Assembly (NCBI GenBank): GCA_003228405.1
Contig: QIDK01000130.1
Coordinates: forward strand, 1 to 38,813
Direction: 5' to 3'
DNA: 38,813 nucleotides
Source: Gammaproteobacteria bacterium
GTDB lineage: Bacteria > Pseudomonadota > Gammaproteobacteria > SZUA-229
The notes beneath the pieces were generated by a model. It was given only the letters and a program-made list of their open reading frames with translations. It was not told the origin of the DNA and did no database searches. Shown in pieces: positions 6,432 through 18,211 of the stretch (positions are counted from its first letter, which is position 1; each line of letters begins with the position of its first letter). A program made the position numbers and the translations under genes.

Positions 6432-6656
6432 ATGCTACCACAGAAAAAACTCAGTATTGCAGCTCATGCTAAACTGATTTTAAAATCTGGAAGCTATCAT
6501 CTAATGCTGGCAAAACCTGAGAAGCGCCTGCTCAGTGGCCATAAAATTCAATTGAACTTCACACTGTCTAATGGTGATAAAACAAGCCTTATGATTAACA
6601 TCAGAAAAAAACCTCGCCCCATGAAATGTGGGGCAGGCAAGTGTGGTAGCATGTAA
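6432..6656 (+). pseudogene. Truncated PCu(A)C copper-chaperone domain with Cys/Met tail
   Basis: The 74-aa product matches only the C-terminal half of the PCu(A)C (DUF461) fold, which normally carries Cu(I) in the periplasm. LSIAAHAKLIL, SGSYHLML and the GHKIQLNFTLSNGD strand are recognisable. The known copper motif of this family is H(M)x10Mx21HxM; here M1, H23 and M25 keep the Mx21HxM part exactly, but the first His and the whole N-terminal half, including a signal peptide, are missing, and an in-frame TGA lies 27 bases upstream. The C-terminus ends MKCGAGKCGSM, a Cys/Met tail that looks metal-binding. It ends 3 bases before psd. It may be a remnant or a small cytoplasmic protein; I lean to remnant. 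Confidence 0.6.
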
Positions 6657-6659
6657 ATT

Positions 6660-7523
6660 ATGAAAGCTACATTTACAGATTATTTAAAATCCACCCCATT
6701 TTATTTTTTACCTCACCATTTAATTTCTGCGCTGGTTTATAAAATCGCACGTATTAAATGGGCTCCTGTGAAAAATTTTTCGCTGAAAATTTATCTGTCA
6801 TTGCATCAGGTCAATATGTCAGAAGCAGTCGAAGAAAACCCCTATGCCTATAAAACACTTAATGCATTTTTTACGCGCGCTTTAAAACCTGGTGCACGAC
6901 TAATAGATAACACGGAAAATACTCTGGTCTGCCCGGTTGATGGCAAAGTAAGTCAGGCTCAGGCAATTGAAAATGGTCGCGTATTTCAGGCCAAGGGGCA
7001 GGACTATAGCCTGCTGGAATTAGTCGGCGGTATAGATGAGCTCGCCGAACCATTTACCAATAGCTCTTTTGCGACTATTTATCTGTCACCAAGAGATTAT
7101 CATCGCATTCATATGCCAGTTGATGGCAGGCTTACCGATATGGTGTATGTGCCGGGTCGTTTATTTAGTGTGGCACCGCATACAGTAAACACCGTGCCCA
7201 GATTGTTTGCCCGCAATGAACGCCTGGTATGTCAGTTTAAAACAGATCATGGGCCGATGATTATGATATTAGTGGGCGCGGTCAATGTTTCTGCAATTGA
7301 TACGGTATGGGCCGGTTCGGTTACCCCGCCGAGTAAAAATAAAATTATTCATACGACTTATGTAAATGTAGATATCAGTTTGAAAAAAGGCATGGAAATG
7401 GGACGCTTTAATCTGGGTTCTACGGTTGTTTTATTGATGAACGACAAGGTTGCACTGGATGAGACTATCAGACATGATGAGACTGTAAAACTTGGGCAGA
7501 AATTAGCTTCTTATCATGTTTAA
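6660..7523 (+). CDS. psd: Phosphatidylserine decarboxylase proenzyme
   Basis: Psd makes phosphatidylethanolamine by decarboxylating phosphatidylserine at the inner membrane. The 287-aa proenzyme has the LGST self-cleavage motif at 252-255, where S254 becomes the pyruvoyl prosthetic group, and the other members of the Asp-His-Ser triad in CPVDGKV (D94) and DYHRIHMP (H151). Length is normal for the gammaproteobacterial enzyme. The start ATG overlaps the region directly after the PCu(A)C remnant, so the two would be read from the same message. No strong ribosome binding site is visible. Confidence 0.95.
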   Translation: MKATFTDYLKSTPFYFLPHHLISALVYKIARIKWAPVKNFSLKIYLSLHQVNMSEAVEENPYAYKTLNAFFTRALKPGARLIDNTENTLVCPVDGKVSQAQAIENGRVFQAKGQDYSLLELVGGIDELAEPFTNSSFATIYLSPRDYHRIHMPVDGRLTDMVYVPGRLFSVAPHTVNTVPRLFARNERLVCQFKTDHGPMIMILVGAVNVSAIDTVWAGSVTPPSKNKIIHTTYVNVDISLKKGMEMGRFNLGSTVVLLMNDKVALDETIRHDETVKLGQKLASYHV

Positions 7524-7771
7524 AAGTCGTGGGTTTGCTGCTTATTGATTTTAGCTTTATGGGAATTTGAATTGCATGGAATCGACAGCAGGAGAAGGCT
7601 CAGAATTAAAATCTCCATGCTGCAAAAGCTTGCCCCAAAAACAGGCATATACCACTCCATTCACTATATAAGCAATATTTTCTGTGGTTTTACCACAAAA
7701 CCATTCATTACTGGAGTTAATCCATTTTTAGCAGGTATAATATAAAATCACAAAATAATACATGAATTGAT

Positions 7772-9490: not shown

Positions 9491-10447
9491 TCATTTATCT
9501 CCATGCCGCAATGGAAACTGCTGCATCATTTCTTTGCCCTGCTGCAATAAAAACTGTAAAAATGTGCGTGATACCAGGGATAGTTTTTTGCCTTTCAAAT
9601 GCACCGCATACCAGCGATAAAATAATGGAAAACCTTTTACATCCAGTATGGAAATATAATTTCCCGCCAGTTCCAGCCGCAAATTATGGCGCGACAAAAC
9701 GGAAATACCTAATCCCGCCATTACCGCCTGTTTAATCGCTTCACTGCTGCCCAGTTCCATATAGGGTTGAATTTCCAGACCCTGTTCTGCAAATAAGCGC
9801 TCTACCGCCAGACGTGTACCCGAGCCTGGTTCGCGTATCAGAAACCGTTCCTGGCTTAACTGCTGCAAATTTATATCGGTAGATTTTGTCAACGGGTGAT
9901 CGGGACTGGCAACCACAACAAGTTCGTTATCAATAAAGGGGTGAGCCTCCACATCCAGTTCCACAGGTACCTGCCCCATAATGAGTAAATCATCTTCATT
10001 AGATTTTAGCCGTTCCAGAACACGGGAGCGATTGGTCACCTTGAGCATGGGCTGTACTTCAGGGTGCAGCTGAATAAAGGCACCGAGCAGATGGGGCATA
10101 AAATATTTGGCCGTGGTGATAACCGCGATGCGTAAGGGGCCTTTTACTACACCTTCAAGCTCAGTTGTCGTTTCACCCAGTGATACCATGCTGCTAAGAA
10201 TTTTCTGAGATGAGAGATAAACTTCATTACCCACAGCGGTGGTGTGCAGATGATTACCGACTTTTTCAAGCAGGGGATATCCAATGGTTTCACTGAGTTT
10301 TTTTACCTGCATCGACACCGTGGGCTGGGATAAATGCAGTTCTTCGGCGGCTCGAGTGTAGCCCCCGAGGCGCACCACCGCTTCAAAAATCTGCATCTGA
10401 CGCAGGGTAAGATGCCGAATTAAATTTTTAGCCGTTGAGTAAACCAT
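9491..10447 (-). CDS. cbbR: LysR-type regulator of RuBisCO genes, CbbR
   Basis: CbbR is the LysR-family activator of Calvin-cycle genes that senses metabolites such as NADPH or RuBP. The 318-aa protein has an N-terminal winged helix-turn-helix (HLTLRQMQIFEAVVRLGGYT then AAEELHLSQPTVSMQVKKL) and a C-terminal periplasmic-binding-like effector domain from about residue 95. FEAVVRLGGYTRAAEELHLSQPTVSMQ closely resembles CbbR sequences, and its position, divergent from cbbL across a 135-base gap, supports the name. Its end nearly touches the decayed fragment upstream in the window. Confidence 0.92.
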   Translation of the reverse strand: MVYSTAKNLIRHLTLRQMQIFEAVVRLGGYTRAAEELHLSQPTVSMQVKKLSETIGYPLLEKVGNHLHTTAVGNEVYLSSQKILSSMVSLGETTTELEGVVKGPLRIAVITTAKYFMPHLLGAFIQLHPEVQPMLKVTNRSRVLERLKSNEDDLLIMGQVPVELDVEAHPFIDNELVVVASPDHPLTKSTDINLQQLSQERFLIREPGSGTRLAVERLFAEQGLEIQPYMELGSSEAIKQAVMAGLGISVLSRHNLRLELAGNYISILDVKGFPLFYRWYAVHLKGKKLSLVSRTFLQFLLQQGKEMMQQFPLRHGDK

Positions 10448-10582: not shown

Positions 10583-12001
10583 ATGGCTAAAACTTATGAT
10601 GCGGGTGTCAAAGACTACCGCGAAACTTACTGGATGCCGGACTATACCCCGAAAGAAACGGATATTCTGGCCTGTTTTAAAGTAACACCACAGGATGGTG
10701 TACCGCGTGAAGAAGTGGCGGCTGCGGTTGCCGCAGAATCTTCAACCGGTACCTGGACGACGGTATGGACCGACCTGCTAACCGATCTGGATTATTACAA
10801 AGGCCGTGCCTATGCAATAGAAGACGTGCCAGGTGATGATACCTGTTTCTATGCCTTTATCGCCTACCCGATTGATCTTTTCGAAGAAGGCTCGGTGGTA
10901 AACGTAATGACATCGCTGGTGGGTAATGTATTCGGCTTTAAAGCTCTGCGTGCCCTGCGCCTGGAAGATATTCGTTTCCCAGTTGCCTATGTAATGACCT
11001 GTAATGGCCCCCCTCAAGGTATCCAGTTAGAACGTGACATTTTAAATAAATACGGTCGTCCATTGCTGGGCTGTACCATTAAACCTAAATTAGGTCTATC
11101 GGCTAAAAACTACGGTCGTGCCTGCTACGAAGGTTTACGCGGTGGCCTGGATTTCACCAAAGATGATGAAAATGTAAACTCGCAGCCCTTTATGCGCTGG
11201 CGTGCCCGTTTCGATTTTGTAATGGAAGCGATTCACAAAGCAGAAGCCGAAACCGGAGAACGTAAAGGTCACTACCTGAATGTAACTGCGGCGACTTCTG
11301 ATGAAATGATGAAACGTGCTGAGTACGCTAAAGAAATCGGCGCACCGATTATTATGCACGATTACATTACCGGTGGCTGGTCTGCAAATACACAGTTAGC
11401 ACAATGGTGTCAGGATAACGGCATGCTGTTACACATTCACCGTGCAATGCACGCGGTGCTCGATCGTAACCCGCACCACGGTATTCACTTCCGCGTACTA
11501 GCCAAAATCTTACGTCTGTCTGGTGGTGATCACCTGCACTCAGGTACGGTTGTGGGTAAATTAGAAGGTGATCGTGAAGCAACGTTAGGCTGGATCGATA
11601 TCATGCGCGACTCATTCATTAAAGAAGATCGTTCACGTGGCATCTTCTTCGATCAGGACTGGGGTGCAATGCCAGGTGTTCTACCGGTTGCTTCCGGCGG
11701 TATCCACGTATGGCACATGCCAGCATTAGTTAACATCTTTGGTGATGATTCTGTGCTGCAATTTGGTGGCGGTACACTGGGTCACCCCTGGGGCAATGCC
11801 GCGGGTGCAGCGGCTAACCGTGTTGCTGTTGAAGCCTGTGTTGAAGCACGCAATATGGGGCGTGAGCTTGAGAAAGAAGGCAAGGATATTCTGACTTCTG
11901 CTGCGAAGCACAGCCCGGAGCTGGCCGCTGCTATGGAAACCTGGAAAGAAATCAAGTTTGAATTCGATACGGTTGACAAGCTGGACGTTTCACATAAATA
12001 G
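10583..12001 (+). CDS. cbbL: RuBisCO large subunit, form IA type (non-carboxysomal)
   Basis: CbbL carboxylates ribulose-1,5-bisphosphate. At 472 aa it has all the active-site blocks: [11 protein letters not shown] (about 54-63), [12 protein letters not shown], the carbamylated-lysine motif FTKDDENV (K193, D195, E196), HRAMHAV, the loop-6 lysine in [12 protein letters not shown], and [18 protein letters not shown] then [12 protein letters not shown]. The N-terminus ([23 protein letters not shown]) is that of the green-like form IA/IB lineage. Linkage to cbbS, cbbQ and cbbO without carboxysome shell genes places it with the form IAq type. Codon use looks more selected and GC-richer than its neighbours, consistent with high expression. 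Confidence 0.98.
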
Positions 12002-12120: not shown

Positions 12121-12468
12121 ATGCAAGATTATGAATCAAGTTTGAGCAATACCACGAGCCGTAAGTTTGAAACCTTTTCCTATTTGCCGGCAATGACACC
12201 TGAGCAAACTCGTCAGCAAATCGAATATATCGTCAGCAAGGGCTGGAACCCGGGCATTGAACACACCGAACCAGAAAATGCGACCGGTCACTACTGGTAT
12301 ATGTGGAAACTGCCTATGTTCGGTGAAACAGACGTAGATGCTATCATAAAAGAAGTTGAAGCCTGCCATACAGCACACCCTGAAAATCATGTGCGTTTGT
12401 TAGGTTTTGATAACTTTTCCCAGTCTGCTGGTGCGTCGATGGTTATTTATAGAGGCAAAACAGTTTAA
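12121..12468 (+). CDS. cbbS: RuBisCO small subunit
   Basis: CbbS caps the L8 core of form I RuBisCO. The 115-aa product has the family sequence [33 protein letters not shown], then [11 protein letters not shown] and the C-terminal [22 protein letters not shown]. Length is normal for a form IA small subunit. It is preceded by a strong ribosome binding site (AGGAG) and follows cbbL after a 119-base spacer holding the hairpin. Confidence 0.97.
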
Positions 12469-12591: not shown

Positions 12592-12906
12592 ATGAGTAAA
12601 CCAGATAAATACATAGGTCTTGATAATGAAATTAATGGTGGCATGACCAGCATTGGAAAAATTATCCGCGATGCCTGGTTATTTGAGCTCATTGAAGCAA
12701 ACGAAACCTGTGAAGGCTGGAACCTGGCCGGTATTGATGCATTGCTACAGAAAGTCAATACAGAGTGGGATAAATATGGTTGCATGGTTAGCCAGTTACC
12801 CGAACCATTAGCAAAGCGTCACCATCAAATATATACGCAGGCCATTAAAAAAGCCAGAGTAGCGGGATGGTCCGGTGAACATGAAACCGCTGATGAAGAT
12901 GAGTAA
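12592..12906 (+). CDS. Conserved-looking unknown protein between cbbS and cbbQ
   Basis: I do not recognise a named family for this 104-aa protein. It is soluble, with no signal peptide or membrane segment. A short ordered N-terminal part (KYIGLDNEINGGMTSIGKII) is followed by a predicted helical region containing CEGWNLAGIDALL, then RHHQIYTQAIKKARVAGW and an acidic tail (HETADEDE). It has two Cys (in NETCEGW and YGCMV). The position between the RuBisCO subunits and the activase genes, in the same direction and 35 bases before cbbQ, suggests a role in RuBisCO assembly, activation or autotrophic control, but that is inference from context only. Confidence 0.8.
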   Translation: MSKPDKYIGLDNEINGGMTSIGKIIRDAWLFELIEANETCEGWNLAGIDALLQKVNTEWDKYGCMVSQLPEPLAKRHHQIYTQAIKKARVAGWSGEHETADEDE

Positions 12907-12941
12907 AAATTTAATTAATACGAGTATGAGTGGAAATCATT

Positions 12942-13757
12942 ATGTCTGATACACGCGTAGATCCAGAACAGTACATCATTAAAAATGAGCCTTATTACCA
13001 GGCCATCAACAAAGAAATAGACCTCTATGAAGCGGCCTATGATGTGCGCATGCCGATGATGTTAAAAGGCCCAACAGGCTGCGGCAAATCCCGCTTTGTG
13101 GAATACATGGCGTGGAAATTAAATCGCCCGTTAATTACCGTTGCCTGTAATGAAGACATGACCGCATCGGATTTAGTCGGTCGATTTTTATTAGATAAGG
13201 ATGGCACCAAATGGCAGGACGGCCCATTAACCACCGCTGCGCGCATTGGTGCGATCTGTTATTTAGATGAAGTGGTGGAAGCGCGTCAGGATACCACCGT
13301 GGTTATTCATCCGCTCACCGATCACCGCCGATCTTTACCGCTGGATAAAAAAGGTGAACTGATAAAAGCCCATGCAGATTTTCAGCTGGTGATTTCCTAT
13401 AACCCGGGTTACCAGAGCCTGATGAAAGATTTAAAACAGTCTACCAAACAACGTTTTGGCGGGCTGGATTTTGATTACCCGGAAACCGAACTGGAAGTAG
13501 CAATTGTTACCCAGGAATCCGGTGTTGATAAAAGCATGGCAGAAAAGCTGGTACAGATTGCCCACCGTGCACGTAACCTCAAAGGCCATGGTTTAGATGA
13601 AGGCATCTCTACCCGTTTGCTGGTTTATGCGGGTCAGTTAATTAATAAAGGTGTCGATCCCGAAGCTGCGTGTAGCATTACCATGGTAACACCATTGACG
13701 GATGATCCGGATATGCGCGATACATTGAACGCAGCGGTGCAGACATTTCTGGGATAG
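12942..13757 (+). CDS. cbbQ: RuBisCO activase AAA+ ATPase CbbQ
   Basis: CbbQ is the hexameric MoxR-type AAA+ motor that, with CbbO, removes inhibitory sugar phosphates from form I RuBisCO. In the 271-aa product the Walker A motif GPTGCGKS is at 43-50 and Walker B in ICYLDEV near 105-111. The sensor-like [22 protein letters not shown] and [13 protein letters not shown] blocks are typical of CbbQ/NorQ proteins. The ATG at 12942 is preferred to an in-frame GTG at 12930 because it begins at the normal family N-terminus. cbbO follows after 224 bases that hold a composite repeat. Confidence 0.95.
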
Positions 13758-13981: not shown

Positions 13982-16327
13982 ATGTCATCGATCAATCTTG
14001 AAGATTACGCCGAATTTCTGCAGCAGTCTGTGCCGGAAGTTAAAGCCGTGCTGGATAGTACTTTTCATGAAGCTGCACGCATTATGTCGCCTGCCGGGCT
14101 AAGCGATTATATGGATGGCGCAAAGGCACTGACAAATCTGGGACGTGGCCATGATCTGATCATTACCTATCTACAGGAAATGCCGCTGGTAGCTAAAGAA
14201 TGCGGTGAAGATATTATTCCCGATTGTATTACGGCAGCGATGAAAGTCTCTTCAATGACATCCGGTGCGGTGATTACCCTGCTGTTTTCCAGTTTACCCA
14301 CGGTAGCAAAACGTCTGGGTGATGCCCAGTTAGTGCGTGGCTATCTCACCCTGATTCATCAGCTAGCCTCAACCGCTGCTCGTGGTTTACGGCCAATGCT
14401 CAGTCATATTGATGAACTGTTATCAAAACTTACCCTCAGTGGTTTACGTCGCTGGGCGAACTTTGGTGCCCAGGCTTATCGTCGTGATTTTAATAATTTA
14501 ACCGCCTATTTTAATCTGCAATCCGCAGACAGTCGTGCGATGTTAGAGAAAGAACGTCGTGGTGTGTTATTTGTAAAAGTACAGCGTAAGTTAAATTTTT
14601 ATCTGCGTGCACTGTGGGGCCGTGATTTTTTTCTGCGTCCCACCGGTGCCGATTATACTGATTTTCGCCCCTATGTAGAAAACCTGATTTTATATGTACC
14701 CGATGCCTTAGATGATGTTGCTGGCGTTGCAGGGCTGGAATTATATCGTGCCACCGCTGCACATATGGCATCGCACATGATGTATACCACGGCATCTTTG
14801 TCTGCCGAGCAGCTTAGCCCGGCGCAGTTATTTTTTGTTGGTCTGCTGGAAGATGCACGCATAGAATATAAAGCGGTGCAAAATTTTCCCGGCCTGAAAA
14901 AACTCTGGAAAGCATTGATGCAGGTTGAATACGAAGAAAAAGCCGAACATGAAACCATTCCTGCACTGGAAAAATTAGCCCTGCAGTTACTTGATAGCAA
15001 TGTTAAAGGCGATGATGAACAACTGAATTTATTTGCGGAAAAATTTCACGCAGAGATCGAAGCCAGTCAGGATGATAATCATTTTTCCTGGATGATGGGC
15101 GTCGAATTATATAATTTATTTGCCGGCCGCAAGGCGGTGCCGAGTTTGCGTATTTTAGAACGCTATCGCATTCCCTATCGGGATGACAATCGTATTATCT
15201 GGCATTATGAAGATATTAACTGGGATAAATCAGCAGAATATTTACCCGCGTCTAAACGACAGGTGCGTTATAGTGTAAGCCCGTTAATGATGGCCCACGA
15301 AGTCGATTGCGAACTGGCGGGTGATGATGCCCAGGAAATCTGGACCTGTTCAGATTTAATGCGTTTTTATGAAGATGATTTAACGGATAACGCCAGAAGT
15401 TTCAATGAAGAATGGGGTAAGGAACCCATTTCCGAACCCTTTCATTATCAGGAATGGGATTATCAAATTCAACTGCATCGCCCTGACTGGGCCACGGTTT
15501 ATGAACGCCGTTTACCTAAAGGTGATCCACAGGATATTAATGACATACTGACCGAATACAAACCCATTGCGCATCGCATCCGGCAGATTATAGACCTGCT
15601 AACGCCAGCCGGAGTGCAACGCCAACGTGGCATGGAAGATGGCGATGAAATTGATATTAATGCAGCGGTGGATGCCATGATTGCATTGCGCATGGGTGAG
15701 CAACCTAACCCACGTATAACCATGCGCAATATATTACAAACCCGAGATCTGTCGGTAGTGGTATTAATGGACTTATCCGAATCCACCAATGAAGCAATTG
15801 GCGATTCCGATAAAACCGTTTTGCAACTCACCCGTGAAGCCGCTACCTTAGTCGCCACCGCAATAGAAGGTATTGGTGATCCATTTGCGCTGCACGGTTT
15901 TGCGTCAGATGGCCGACATGATGTACAGTATTATCGCTTTAAAGATTTTAATCAGCATTACGACGATGAAGCCAAAGCCCGACTGGCGGGCATGAAAGGC
16001 GGCCTGTCTACACGTATGGGTGCAGCATTGCGCCACGCCGGACATCACCTGTTAAAGCAGCAGGAAAGACGCAAACTTATTTTATTAGTCACCGATGGTG
16101 AACCGGCGGATATTGATGAACAGGATCCGCAACATTTACGTCACGATACAAAAAAAGCGGTTGAAGAATTATATTCTAATGGCGTGTTGACTTACTGTCT
16201 GACACTTGACCCCCATGCAGATAATTATGTAAAGCGTATTTTTGGTGAAAATAATTATACGGTGATTGAGCATGTGGATCGTTTGCCAGAACAGTTACCG
16301 TTATTATTTGCCAGCCTGACTGGTTAA
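13982..16327 (+). CDS. cbbO: RuBisCO activase adaptor CbbO (VWA domain)
   Basis: CbbO is the adaptor that bridges the CbbQ hexamer to RuBisCO. The 781-aa length fits the family. The N-terminal 500 residues are helical and carry no known catalytic motif. The C-terminal von Willebrand A domain starts near residue 590 with the metal-ion site DLSES (D597, S599, S601) and includes LLVTDGEP around 700, the second part of the MIDAS site. The MIDAS is intact, so metal-dependent binding to RuBisCO is plausible. The gene shares direction and context with cbbQ and is followed by a 117-aa unknown gene. Confidence 0.95.
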   Translation: MSSINLEDYAEFLQQSVPEVKAVLDSTFHEAARIMSPAGLSDYMDGAKALTNLGRGHDLIITYLQEMPLVAKECGEDIIPDCITAAMKVSSMTSGAVITLLFSSLPTVAKRLGDAQLVRGYLTLIHQLASTAARGLRPMLSHIDELLSKLTLSGLRRWANFGAQAYRRDFNNLTAYFNLQSADSRAMLEKERRGVLFVKVQRKLNFYLRALWGRDFFLRPTGADYTDFRPYVENLILYVPDALDDVAGVAGLELYRATAAHMASHMMYTTASLSAEQLSPAQLFFVGLLEDARIEYKAVQNFPGLKKLWKALMQVEYEEKAEHETIPALEKLALQLLDSNVKGDDEQLNLFAEKFHAEIEASQDDNHFSWMMGVELYNLFAGRKAVPSLRILERYRIPYRDDNRIIWHYEDINWDKSAEYLPASKRQVRYSVSPLMMAHEVDCELAGDDAQEIWTCSDLMRFYEDDLTDNARSFNEEWGKEPISEPFHYQEWDYQIQLHRPDWATVYERRLPKGDPQDINDILTEYKPIAHRIRQIIDLLTPAGVQRQRGMEDGDEIDINAAVDAMIALRMGEQPNPRITMRNILQTRDLSVVVLMDLSESTNEAIGDSDKTVLQLTREAATLVATAIEGIGDPFALHGFASDGRHDVQYYRFKDFNQHYDDEAKARLAGMKGGLSTRMGAALRHAGHHLLKQQERRKLILLVTDGEPADIDEQDPQHLRHDTKKAVEELYSNGVLTYCLTLDPHADNYVKRIFGENNYTVIEHVDRLPEQLPLLFASLTG

Positions 16328-16411
16328 ACTGAATTAATCAGTTGAGCGCTTAATATGTGAGCTAAAATATGAAAATGTATATTGTTCCAACTAATTAGTT
16401 CAGGTTTAATA

Positions 16412-16765
16412 ATGGTAACTCGTATTCATGATATGCCGGTGTATGCATCACGTACCGAGGAAATTGATGCGGCTTTATATAATTTGTGGCGCAGAGCGCG
16501 GTTGCATTTAAATTTACCGGTACGTTTAAAACTACCCTCATTAAAATCGATGATTTTAATTTTAGAAGAAGATTGCTGGGTGGTGGTTGATCCACGAAAT
16601 TATGACCTGCCGCTGATTGCCTGGATCAATTTTCAGGATGCGAGGCGCAACAGTTTGCATGCACCGGTTGAATGTACTGCAAATTATTATCATTTTATGG
16701 CCAGTCAGTTTCGTGAAAAAATACTGGCTGAAATAGGTGAGGCGTTTGAGGATTGTTTGGCATGA
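16412..16765 (+). CDS. Unknown protein downstream of cbbO
   Basis: I do not recognise this 117-aa protein. It appears soluble, with an N-terminal helix rich in Arg (NLWRRARLHLNL), a hydrophobic beta segment SMILILEEDCWVVVDP, PLIAWINFQDARRNSLHAPV and a C-terminal helix (MASQFREKILAEIGEAFEDC). The alternating strand-helix pattern suggests a small alpha/beta fold. The ATG at 16412 is preferred over an in-frame TTG at 16382. It lies 84 bases after cbbO and before the aldolase gene, so a Calvin-cycle link is likely by context, but no function can be named. Confidence 0.75.
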   Translation: MVTRIHDMPVYASRTEEIDAALYNLWRRARLHLNLPVRLKLPSLKSMILILEEDCWVVVDPRNYDLPLIAWINFQDARRNSLHAPVECTANYYHFMASQFREKILAEIGEAFEDCLA

Positions 16766-16771
16766 AGTTAG

Positions 16772-16919
16772 AAAGGCAAAAACATTTTTACCGCAAATAA
16801 ACGCAAAAACACGCAAGTTTTTTTATGTTGTGCGCCATAGGTGCACAACATCCAGGTATTGCTTTTGCTTGTATTTGCGTATATTAGCGTTTATTTGCGG
16901 TAAAAATTCTTTTGCTTTT
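16772..16919. repeat. Composite inverted repeat, copy 3 (before the aldolase gene)
   Basis: The arms, beginning AAAGGCAAAAACATTTTTAC on the left and ending TTCTTTTGCTTTT on the right, match over 33 bases with three mismatches and contain the CCGCAAATAAACGC variant of the family core. Inside is a near-perfect hairpin, GTTGTGCGCC-ATA-GGTGCACAAC. It begins 6 bases after the stop of the 117-aa gene. Confidence 0.85.
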
Positions 16920-16978
16920 TGAAGTTATCGTTATCCAGGCCAGGCACTGCAATGTGACTTTAAAGGTAAGAAAATATT

Positions 16979-18211
16979 ATGCCACTAGTTGATATGAAGG
17001 ATATGCTGCAACACGCTTACCAGCATGGTTATGCGGTGGGTGCATTTGAAGTTGTCAGTCTGGATTTTCTGGATGGCATAATGCTGGCGGCAGAGCAGGC
17101 ACGGGCGCCGGTTATTTTAAGCATGGCGGAATCGCATTTTGAATATTTTGATTTTGATTTAATTATGCCAGCGGTAGAAGCTGCAGCAAAACGCGCACTG
17201 GTGCCGGTGGCGATTCATTTTGATCATGGCACCTGTATTGAAACTGCGGTGAATGGCATTAATCGAGGCTGTAATGGTGTACTGGTCGATGCCTCTCATG
17301 AGGAGTTTATGGAGAATATACGCATTACCCGGCAGGTAGTTGAAACAGCTCATGCCTGCGGAGTCGCCGTAGAAGGTGAGCTGGGTTATGTGCCTGGTGT
17401 TGAAGGTGAAGGGGCGGAGCACTATCCCGGCGAGCTGGCTTATACCTCATTAGCAGAAGCCAGGGCTTATGTTGAACGTACTGAAGTCGATTTTCTGGCG
17501 ATTTCTATTGGCACGGTTCATGGACACATGAAGGGCAAGCCCAAACTGGATTATCAACGCTTAAAACAAATCAATGATGCCCTGGATTTACCACTGGTTA
17601 TTCATGGGGGGAGCGGGCTTTCTGATGATCAGTTTCACCGCCTGATTTCCAATGGTGTTGCCAAAATAAATTGCTTTACCGCATTGTCAGATGCGGTGGC
17701 AAAACAAATTAGAAAAAATATAAAAATAGAAATATCCAGCGGTTATATCGGTTTGGCGAAAAACATTAATCATGCAGTCGCGGCTGAGGTTGAACGTTGC
17801 ATGCGGTTATGGGGCTCCGCTGGCAGAGCCGCTGAGGTGCTGGCTCGTTGCGAGTCATGGACATCAGTTGAGCAGATAATTATCTGCACCGTCGAAGGAC
17901 TGGATAACTCCGATGCATCTATTTTGATGAACGAAGGGCGGCGCATGCTTTCCAGTATTCCAGGAGTACGTGATGTTTTTTCAGGTGAAGCGGTGCAGAA
18001 AGATGCCAGGTATCATTATACCTGGCGGATTCGTTTATGCCATCCGGTGGTGGTAGACAGTTATCGTAAACATGCAGCTTATATTAATTTTATTAATAAA
18101 TTATTCCGGCCAGTCGCCGGAAAATGTATCAATATTGATTTTCAGGAAGTAACACCGGTTTCCAGTCAATACCAGCTTGAACCCGTAATTAGAAGGAAAG
18201 TTATGTCATAA
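16979..18211 (+). CDS. Class II ketose-bisphosphate aldolase fused to a Dabb-like domain
   Basis: Residues 1-285 are a zinc-dependent class II aldolase: HFDHG at 80-84 (D82, H83), VEGELGY with E132/E134, GTVHGHMKGKPKLD (H181), VIHGGSGLS (H209) and KINCFTAL, ending with the usual MRLWGSAGRA helix. In a cbb cluster this would act as fructose/sedoheptulose-bisphosphate aldolase. Residues about 296-391 are extra: VEQIIICTVEG, a helix ending SSIPGVRDVFSGE, YHYTWRIRL, HPVVVDSYRKHAAYINFINKL and CINIDFQEV follow the strand-helix order of the stress-responsive alpha/beta barrel (Dabb) family, which forms dimers. The usual aldolase is about 280-360 aa without this tail. The Dabb call is by pattern and moderate. 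Confidence 0.85.
   Translation: MPLVDMKDMLQHAYQHGYAVGAFEVVSLDFLDGIMLAAEQARAPVILSMAESHFEYFDFDLIMPAVEAAAKRALVPVAIHFDHGTCIETAVNGINRGCNGVLVDASHEEFMENIRITRQVVETAHACGVAVEGELGYVPGVEGEGAEHYPGELAYTSLAEARAYVERTEVDFLAISIGTVHGHMKGKPKLDYQRLKQINDALDLPLVIHGGSGLSDDQFHRLISNGVAKINCFTALSDAVAKQIRKNIKIEISSGYIGLAKNINHAVAAEVERCMRLWGSAGRAAEVLARCESWTSVEQIIICTVEGLDNSDASILMNEGRRMLSSIPGVRDVFSGEAVQKDARYHYTWRIRLCHPVVVDSYRKHAAYINFINKLFRPVAGKCINIDFQEVTPVSSQYQLEPVIRRKVMS

Follow-up and report, generated by a model that had tools for sequence, protein, structure and literature searches.

A predicted class II aldolase with a C-terminal Dabb domain beside RuBisCO genes, and loss of the aldolase metal site in some of its relatives

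The closest described counterpart of the gene analyzed here is cbbA of the cbb1 operon of Acidithiobacillus ferrooxidans (ACK80290.1 / AFE_1676), for which Pfam01116 and Pfam07876 were listed and co-transcription with cbbO1 was shown (Esparza 2010, PMC2942843). Our literature search found biochemical data for no member of this aldolase-Dabb family. The two domains also occur apart. Class II fructose/tagatose-bisphosphate aldolases and related DHAP aldolases (7ncc, 7nc7, 8q57, and 1gvf) end at about 285 residues and have no Dabb domain, and the Dabb proteins Mll5499 (3bde), olivetolic acid cyclase (5b08), and At3g17210 (1q4r) are stand-alone proteins of 100–120 aa.

The window, that is, the whole stretch of 38,813 nucleotides from a Gammaproteobacteria bacterium, contains the RuBisCO cluster that an earlier note had recognized, with cbbR, cbbL, cbbS, cbbQ, and cbbO all found around the aldolase gene. 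The predicted features are as follows.

9491–10447, minus strand: cbbR, a divergent LysR-type regulator (PF03466/PF00126); CbbR homologues adjoin cbbL in many loci
10583–12001, plus strand: cbbL, RuBisCO large subunit (PF00016 match at 11018–11944, 461.9 bits)
12121–12468, plus strand: cbbS, RuBisCO small subunit, assigned by sequence
12592–12906: conserved small gene of the cbbLSQO cluster, no Pfam or NCBIfam match, homologues in 22 related loci
12930–13757, plus strand: cbbQ, RuBisCO activase pair with cbbO (CbbQ_C PF08406, 4.5e-34)
13982–16327, plus strand: cbbO, RuBisCO activase pair with cbbQ (VWA PF00092, 2.8e-9)
16382–16765, plus strand: small conserved gene separating cbbO from the aldolase gene, without a match in Pfam or NCBIfam; 28 loci have homologues, most of them at the same position
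16979–17833, plus strand: class II ketose-bisphosphate aldolase domain, residues 1–285 (PF01116, TIGR00167, structure alignments, AF2/Foldseek)
17834–18163, plus strand: C-terminal Dabb domain, residues 286–395, with strands and helices at 297–389 (PF07876, PDB profile, AF2, Foldseek)

The gene thus resembles A. ferrooxidans cbbA in its two domains and in following cbbO within an operon of RuBisCO and activase genes, whereas A. ferrooxidans CbbA, known here by its published domain listing, lies in a carboxysome operon (form IAc). Directly upstream of the aldolase gene, separating it from the small gene before it, is an inverted repeat (16765–16926) with 52-nt arms that are 83% complementary. 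Its core, TTACCGCAAATAAACGC, recurs in about 150 copies genome-wide at two or fewer mismatches and frequently sits at the ends of contigs, which suggests a dispersed repeat element. The same genome also encodes, on another contig, a second, form II-like large subunit of RuBisCO (G000:C104, L149:1667-2560).

In the window translation, the open reading frame at 16979–18211 (plus strand) encodes 410 aa without an internal stop. Its N-terminal part, residues 4–283, matches PF01116 with 284.8 bits (E 9.9e-85; cut-off 25.5 bits), and alignments to solved class II aldolases indicate that the metal ligands H83, E134, H181, and H209, the catalytic residue D82, and N231 are all kept, which agrees with the earlier proposal of an aldolase complete by about residue 285. 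The full-length AF2 model (pLDDT 91.2) has 8q59, 8q57, and 7nc7 as its best Foldseek matches, and the protein shares the barrel fold, 30–38% identity, and the metal and catalytic residues with 7ncc, 7nc7, 8q57, and 1gvf. It passes TIGR00167, the ketose-bisphosphate aldolase model of the NCBI cbbA subfamily (230 bits versus a cut-off of 215.6), and falls below the FBP aldolase equivalog TIGR01859 (249.6 versus 343 bits) as well as below the cut-offs of all other FBA/TBP equivalog models. The residues of the NxDTDxR motif missing from the protein correspond to D255 and R259 in Giardia FBA numbering. Their absence was considered as a sign of a new substrate and then dropped, because the Bacillus methanolicus aldolases 7ncc and 7nc7 also lack them.

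The C-terminal domain is predicted to be a somewhat degenerate Dabb domain. Taken alone, the window tail (residues 316–389) scores 17.1–18.8 bits in the proposed comparison with PF07876, below the cut-off of 25. The low score can be attributed to Q299 and Y368, which stand where 95 and 78 of 105 family members, respectively, have His. The assignment as Dabb is nevertheless firm because several lines agree: PF07876 is matched by all 75 homologous tails scanned (best E 1.5e-14), the Pfam model exceeds its cut-off at the fused position in six-frame matches of many relatives, a tail profile searched against the PDB finds Dabb structures (3bde, E 5.5e-13; olivetolic acid cyclase, about 1e-7), and the monomeric AF2 model of the tail (pLDDT 93.8) aligns with 3bde in Foldseek (TM 0.79/0.87, prob 1.00). 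The extra domain and its fold had been correctly anticipated from the letters of the window. The tail shares fold and family motif with 3bde, 5b08, and 1q4r and differs from these stand-alone proteins in being fused and in lacking two usual His residues. The gene can accordingly be described, from sequence comparison and structure prediction, as a class II aldolase fused to a Dabb domain beside RuBisCO.

The tail proved to be standard in this aldolase family, one of the two outcomes that the earlier note had counted against its view. The named-genome scan covered the best 80 loci of a longer list, 78 of them readable as complete proteins, and the Dabb tail is present in every one of these 78 relatives; since the same architecture has also been published (PMC2942843), the view of the fusion as unusual was rejected. 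Most carriers among the listed named-genome relatives are autotrophic Proteobacteria. They belong to the Gamma-, Beta-, and Alphaproteobacteria and a few other groups, and include Thiodiazotropha, Sedimenticola, Acidithiobacillus, Gallionella, Sideroxydans, Achromobacter, and Thermopetrobacter. Among 96 related genomes, 31 encode the fusion, and the tail-less aldolases of these same genomes are only about 33–41% identical to the fused form. In a phylum-wide sample, the fused form was found in four of 249 genomes, and other tail matches were mostly small stand-alone Dabb proteins. The aldolase-Dabb protein is therefore a widespread, already annotated architecture of CO2-fixing bacteria, in print since 2010.

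The RuBisCO-associated neighborhood of the fusion is conserved. Forty-four of 68 assessable loci with enough flank are near RuBisCO, activase, or carboxysome genes, and in most loci read through, the fusion lies downstream of RuBisCO and its activase; the other 24 are not near RuBisCO. All four carriers of the phylum sample have RuBisCO (versus 84 of 249 genomes overall), as do 29 of the 31 carriers among the 96 relatives, for which the association has p 1.7e-6 overall but only 0.08 within the family to which the window belongs, most of whose genomes encode RuBisCO. It had been suggested that the fusion might track form IA RuBisCO with cbbQO, and it does not keep to that setting. Besides cbbLSQO clusters like that of the window, it occurs directly after cbbX in red-type cbbLS loci, near form II RuBisCO (L037, as well as L098 and L148, in which the fusion directly follows the RuBisCO gene), and in carboxysome loci (L044, L095, and L144). 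Between the carboxysome genes and the fusion of L044, a Thiogranum MAG, a gene at 6530–7588 resembles, by eye, one for an SbtA-type bicarbonate transporter.

All nine other carrier genomes checked encode a separate FBA of class I or II, which implies that the fusion is an extra aldolase, probably a RuBisCO-associated isozyme. It also leaves the label of a Calvin-cycle aldolase, used in the earlier note, unproven. A search of the window's own genome, an assembly about 91% complete, gave no second PF01116 or PF00274 protein; given this incompleteness and the nine other carriers, the idea that the fusion is the organism's only FBA was rejected.

With moderate confidence, we interpret the protein as a dedicated RuBisCO-associated class II ketose-bisphosphate aldolase isozyme, always carrying a C-terminal Dabb domain as a dimerization or ligand module. 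The N-terminal TIM barrel with its intact metal site would catalyze aldol/retro-aldol reactions involving DHAP and an aldehyde phosphate, the substrate would presumably be of FBP/SBP type, and the reaction would take place beside RuBisCO and activase. The Dabb domain would most likely serve as an accessory module for dimerization or for binding a small ligand. The FBA equivalogs that are not reached and the 24 assessable loci away from RuBisCO speak against this isozyme, as does the loss of metal ligands in about a fifth of family members, which lack H181 or other ligands; such loss would not be expected of an enzyme that simply carries flux.

These losses were traced on a tree of 105 proteins, built by a quick method and with several weak forks. 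A clade of 19 has Gln in place of H181, and its members with enough flank are all linked to RuBisCO or activase genes. L075, a neighbor of this clade, has lost H83, and L108 has lost three metal-site residues. The pair L090/L095 from A. ferrianus, whose fusion lies in a carboxysome cbbQO operon, carries E134D and H181Q, with H83R in addition in L090; in view of these changes, the FBA annotation of the A. ferrooxidans relative may merit a second look. The window protein keeps both of the ligands replaced in L095. H180Q, a variant of the H. pylori aldolase deposited as 5ud2 and 5ud3, appears, by motif and spacing, to be equivalent to H181Q; the literature search found no functional work combining Dabb with aldolase, Dabb with RuBisCO, or H180Q with aldolase. 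Three further loci lie outside the tree set. In the fusion of L144 (8638–9744, plus strand), beside carboxysome genes, D82, H83, H181, and H209 are all lost and the Dabb motif is kept, and in L142 (7249–8175, minus strand) and L143 (6109–6993, minus strand), neither of them near RuBisCO, a large part of the barrel is deleted and the Dabb domain is intact. A second degenerate aldolase, without a Dabb domain, adjoins the fusion of L144 (7574–8533, minus strand).

The H181Q clade is not decaying, as its aldolase domain has a median dN/dS of 0.15 (from only eight pairs with usable dS), a value that points to purifying selection. Repeated loss of the metal site under such selection hints, on thin evidence, that the protein does something other than ordinary FBA catalysis. 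It could then be a RuBisCO accessory protein able to dispense with aldolase chemistry, the barrel acting as a sensor or scaffold that binds RuBP, an inhibitor, or another such sugar bisphosphate, the Dabb domain providing assembly or chemistry of its own, and the barrel having become a pseudo-enzyme in some lineages. We consider this unlikely. It is favored by the several losses in the H181Q clade, L090/L095, L108, and L075, by the continued constraint on the barrel of that clade, and by the Dabb domains kept in L144, L142, and L143; the window protein and most members, however, retain all ligands, and the H181Q clade also lacks some of its Dabb His residues. Among full-length loci, ligand loss affects 14 of 44 RuBisCO-linked and none of 24 unlinked copies, with a Fisher p of 0.0012 that is inflated because there were few independent loss events and related sequences were counted. 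Metal-site loss confined to RuBisCO-linked copies thus holds for full-length loci and fails for the short, degenerate L142 and L143, so that the linkage is a lead only. The broader form of this explanation, in which aldolase-Dabb proteins are an unrecognized RuBisCO accessory factor across cbbLSQO, cbbLSX, form II, and carboxysome loci, with the barrel a non-catalytic sugar-bisphosphate-binding module in several lineages and the Dabb domain keeping a conserved function, seems rather improbable to us.

Also doubtful is that the protein is a plain CbbA (FBP/SBP aldolase) whose Dabb tail is functionally neutral or purely structural. The TIGR00167 match and the published cbbA annotation (PMC2942843) are what such an enzyme would give, Calvin-cycle genomes are in general enriched in PF01116 aldolases, and the window's own, incomplete genome yielded no second aldolase of either Pfam family searched. 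It is harder to reconcile with the separate FBA of the nine other carriers, with the ligands lost in RuBisCO-linked copies, and with a tail that is kept family-wide under purifying selection (dN/dS about 0.15–0.27).

A still less likely role is XuBP-type repair. XuBP has been made in vitro by an enzyme-catalyzed aldol reaction in which DHAP adds to glycolaldehyde phosphate (PMC10212915), so the chemistry is precedented, and in cbbLSX loci the fusion directly follows cbbX, a position (that of cbbY) occupied in Cupriavidus pHG1 by a HAD hydrolase. Members without the metal site could not perform such a reaction, however, and most carrier genomes encode CbbY-like phosphatases (43–50% identical) elsewhere. 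For this last reason, replacement of the XuBP phosphatase CbbY by the fusion is unsupported.

Returning to the isozyme, if the protein is only that, its annotation is an ordinary one. The family is of modest interest, chiefly for its metal-site losses and its spread over RuBisCO types. If the accessory role were true, the gene that annotations of RuBisCO operons give as a plain fructose-bisphosphate aldolase would have a different function, and metabolic models treating it as an FBA would err for lineages whose metal site is broken. RuBisCO genes of several types would then be accompanied by a further kind of protein besides the activases and carboxysome components.
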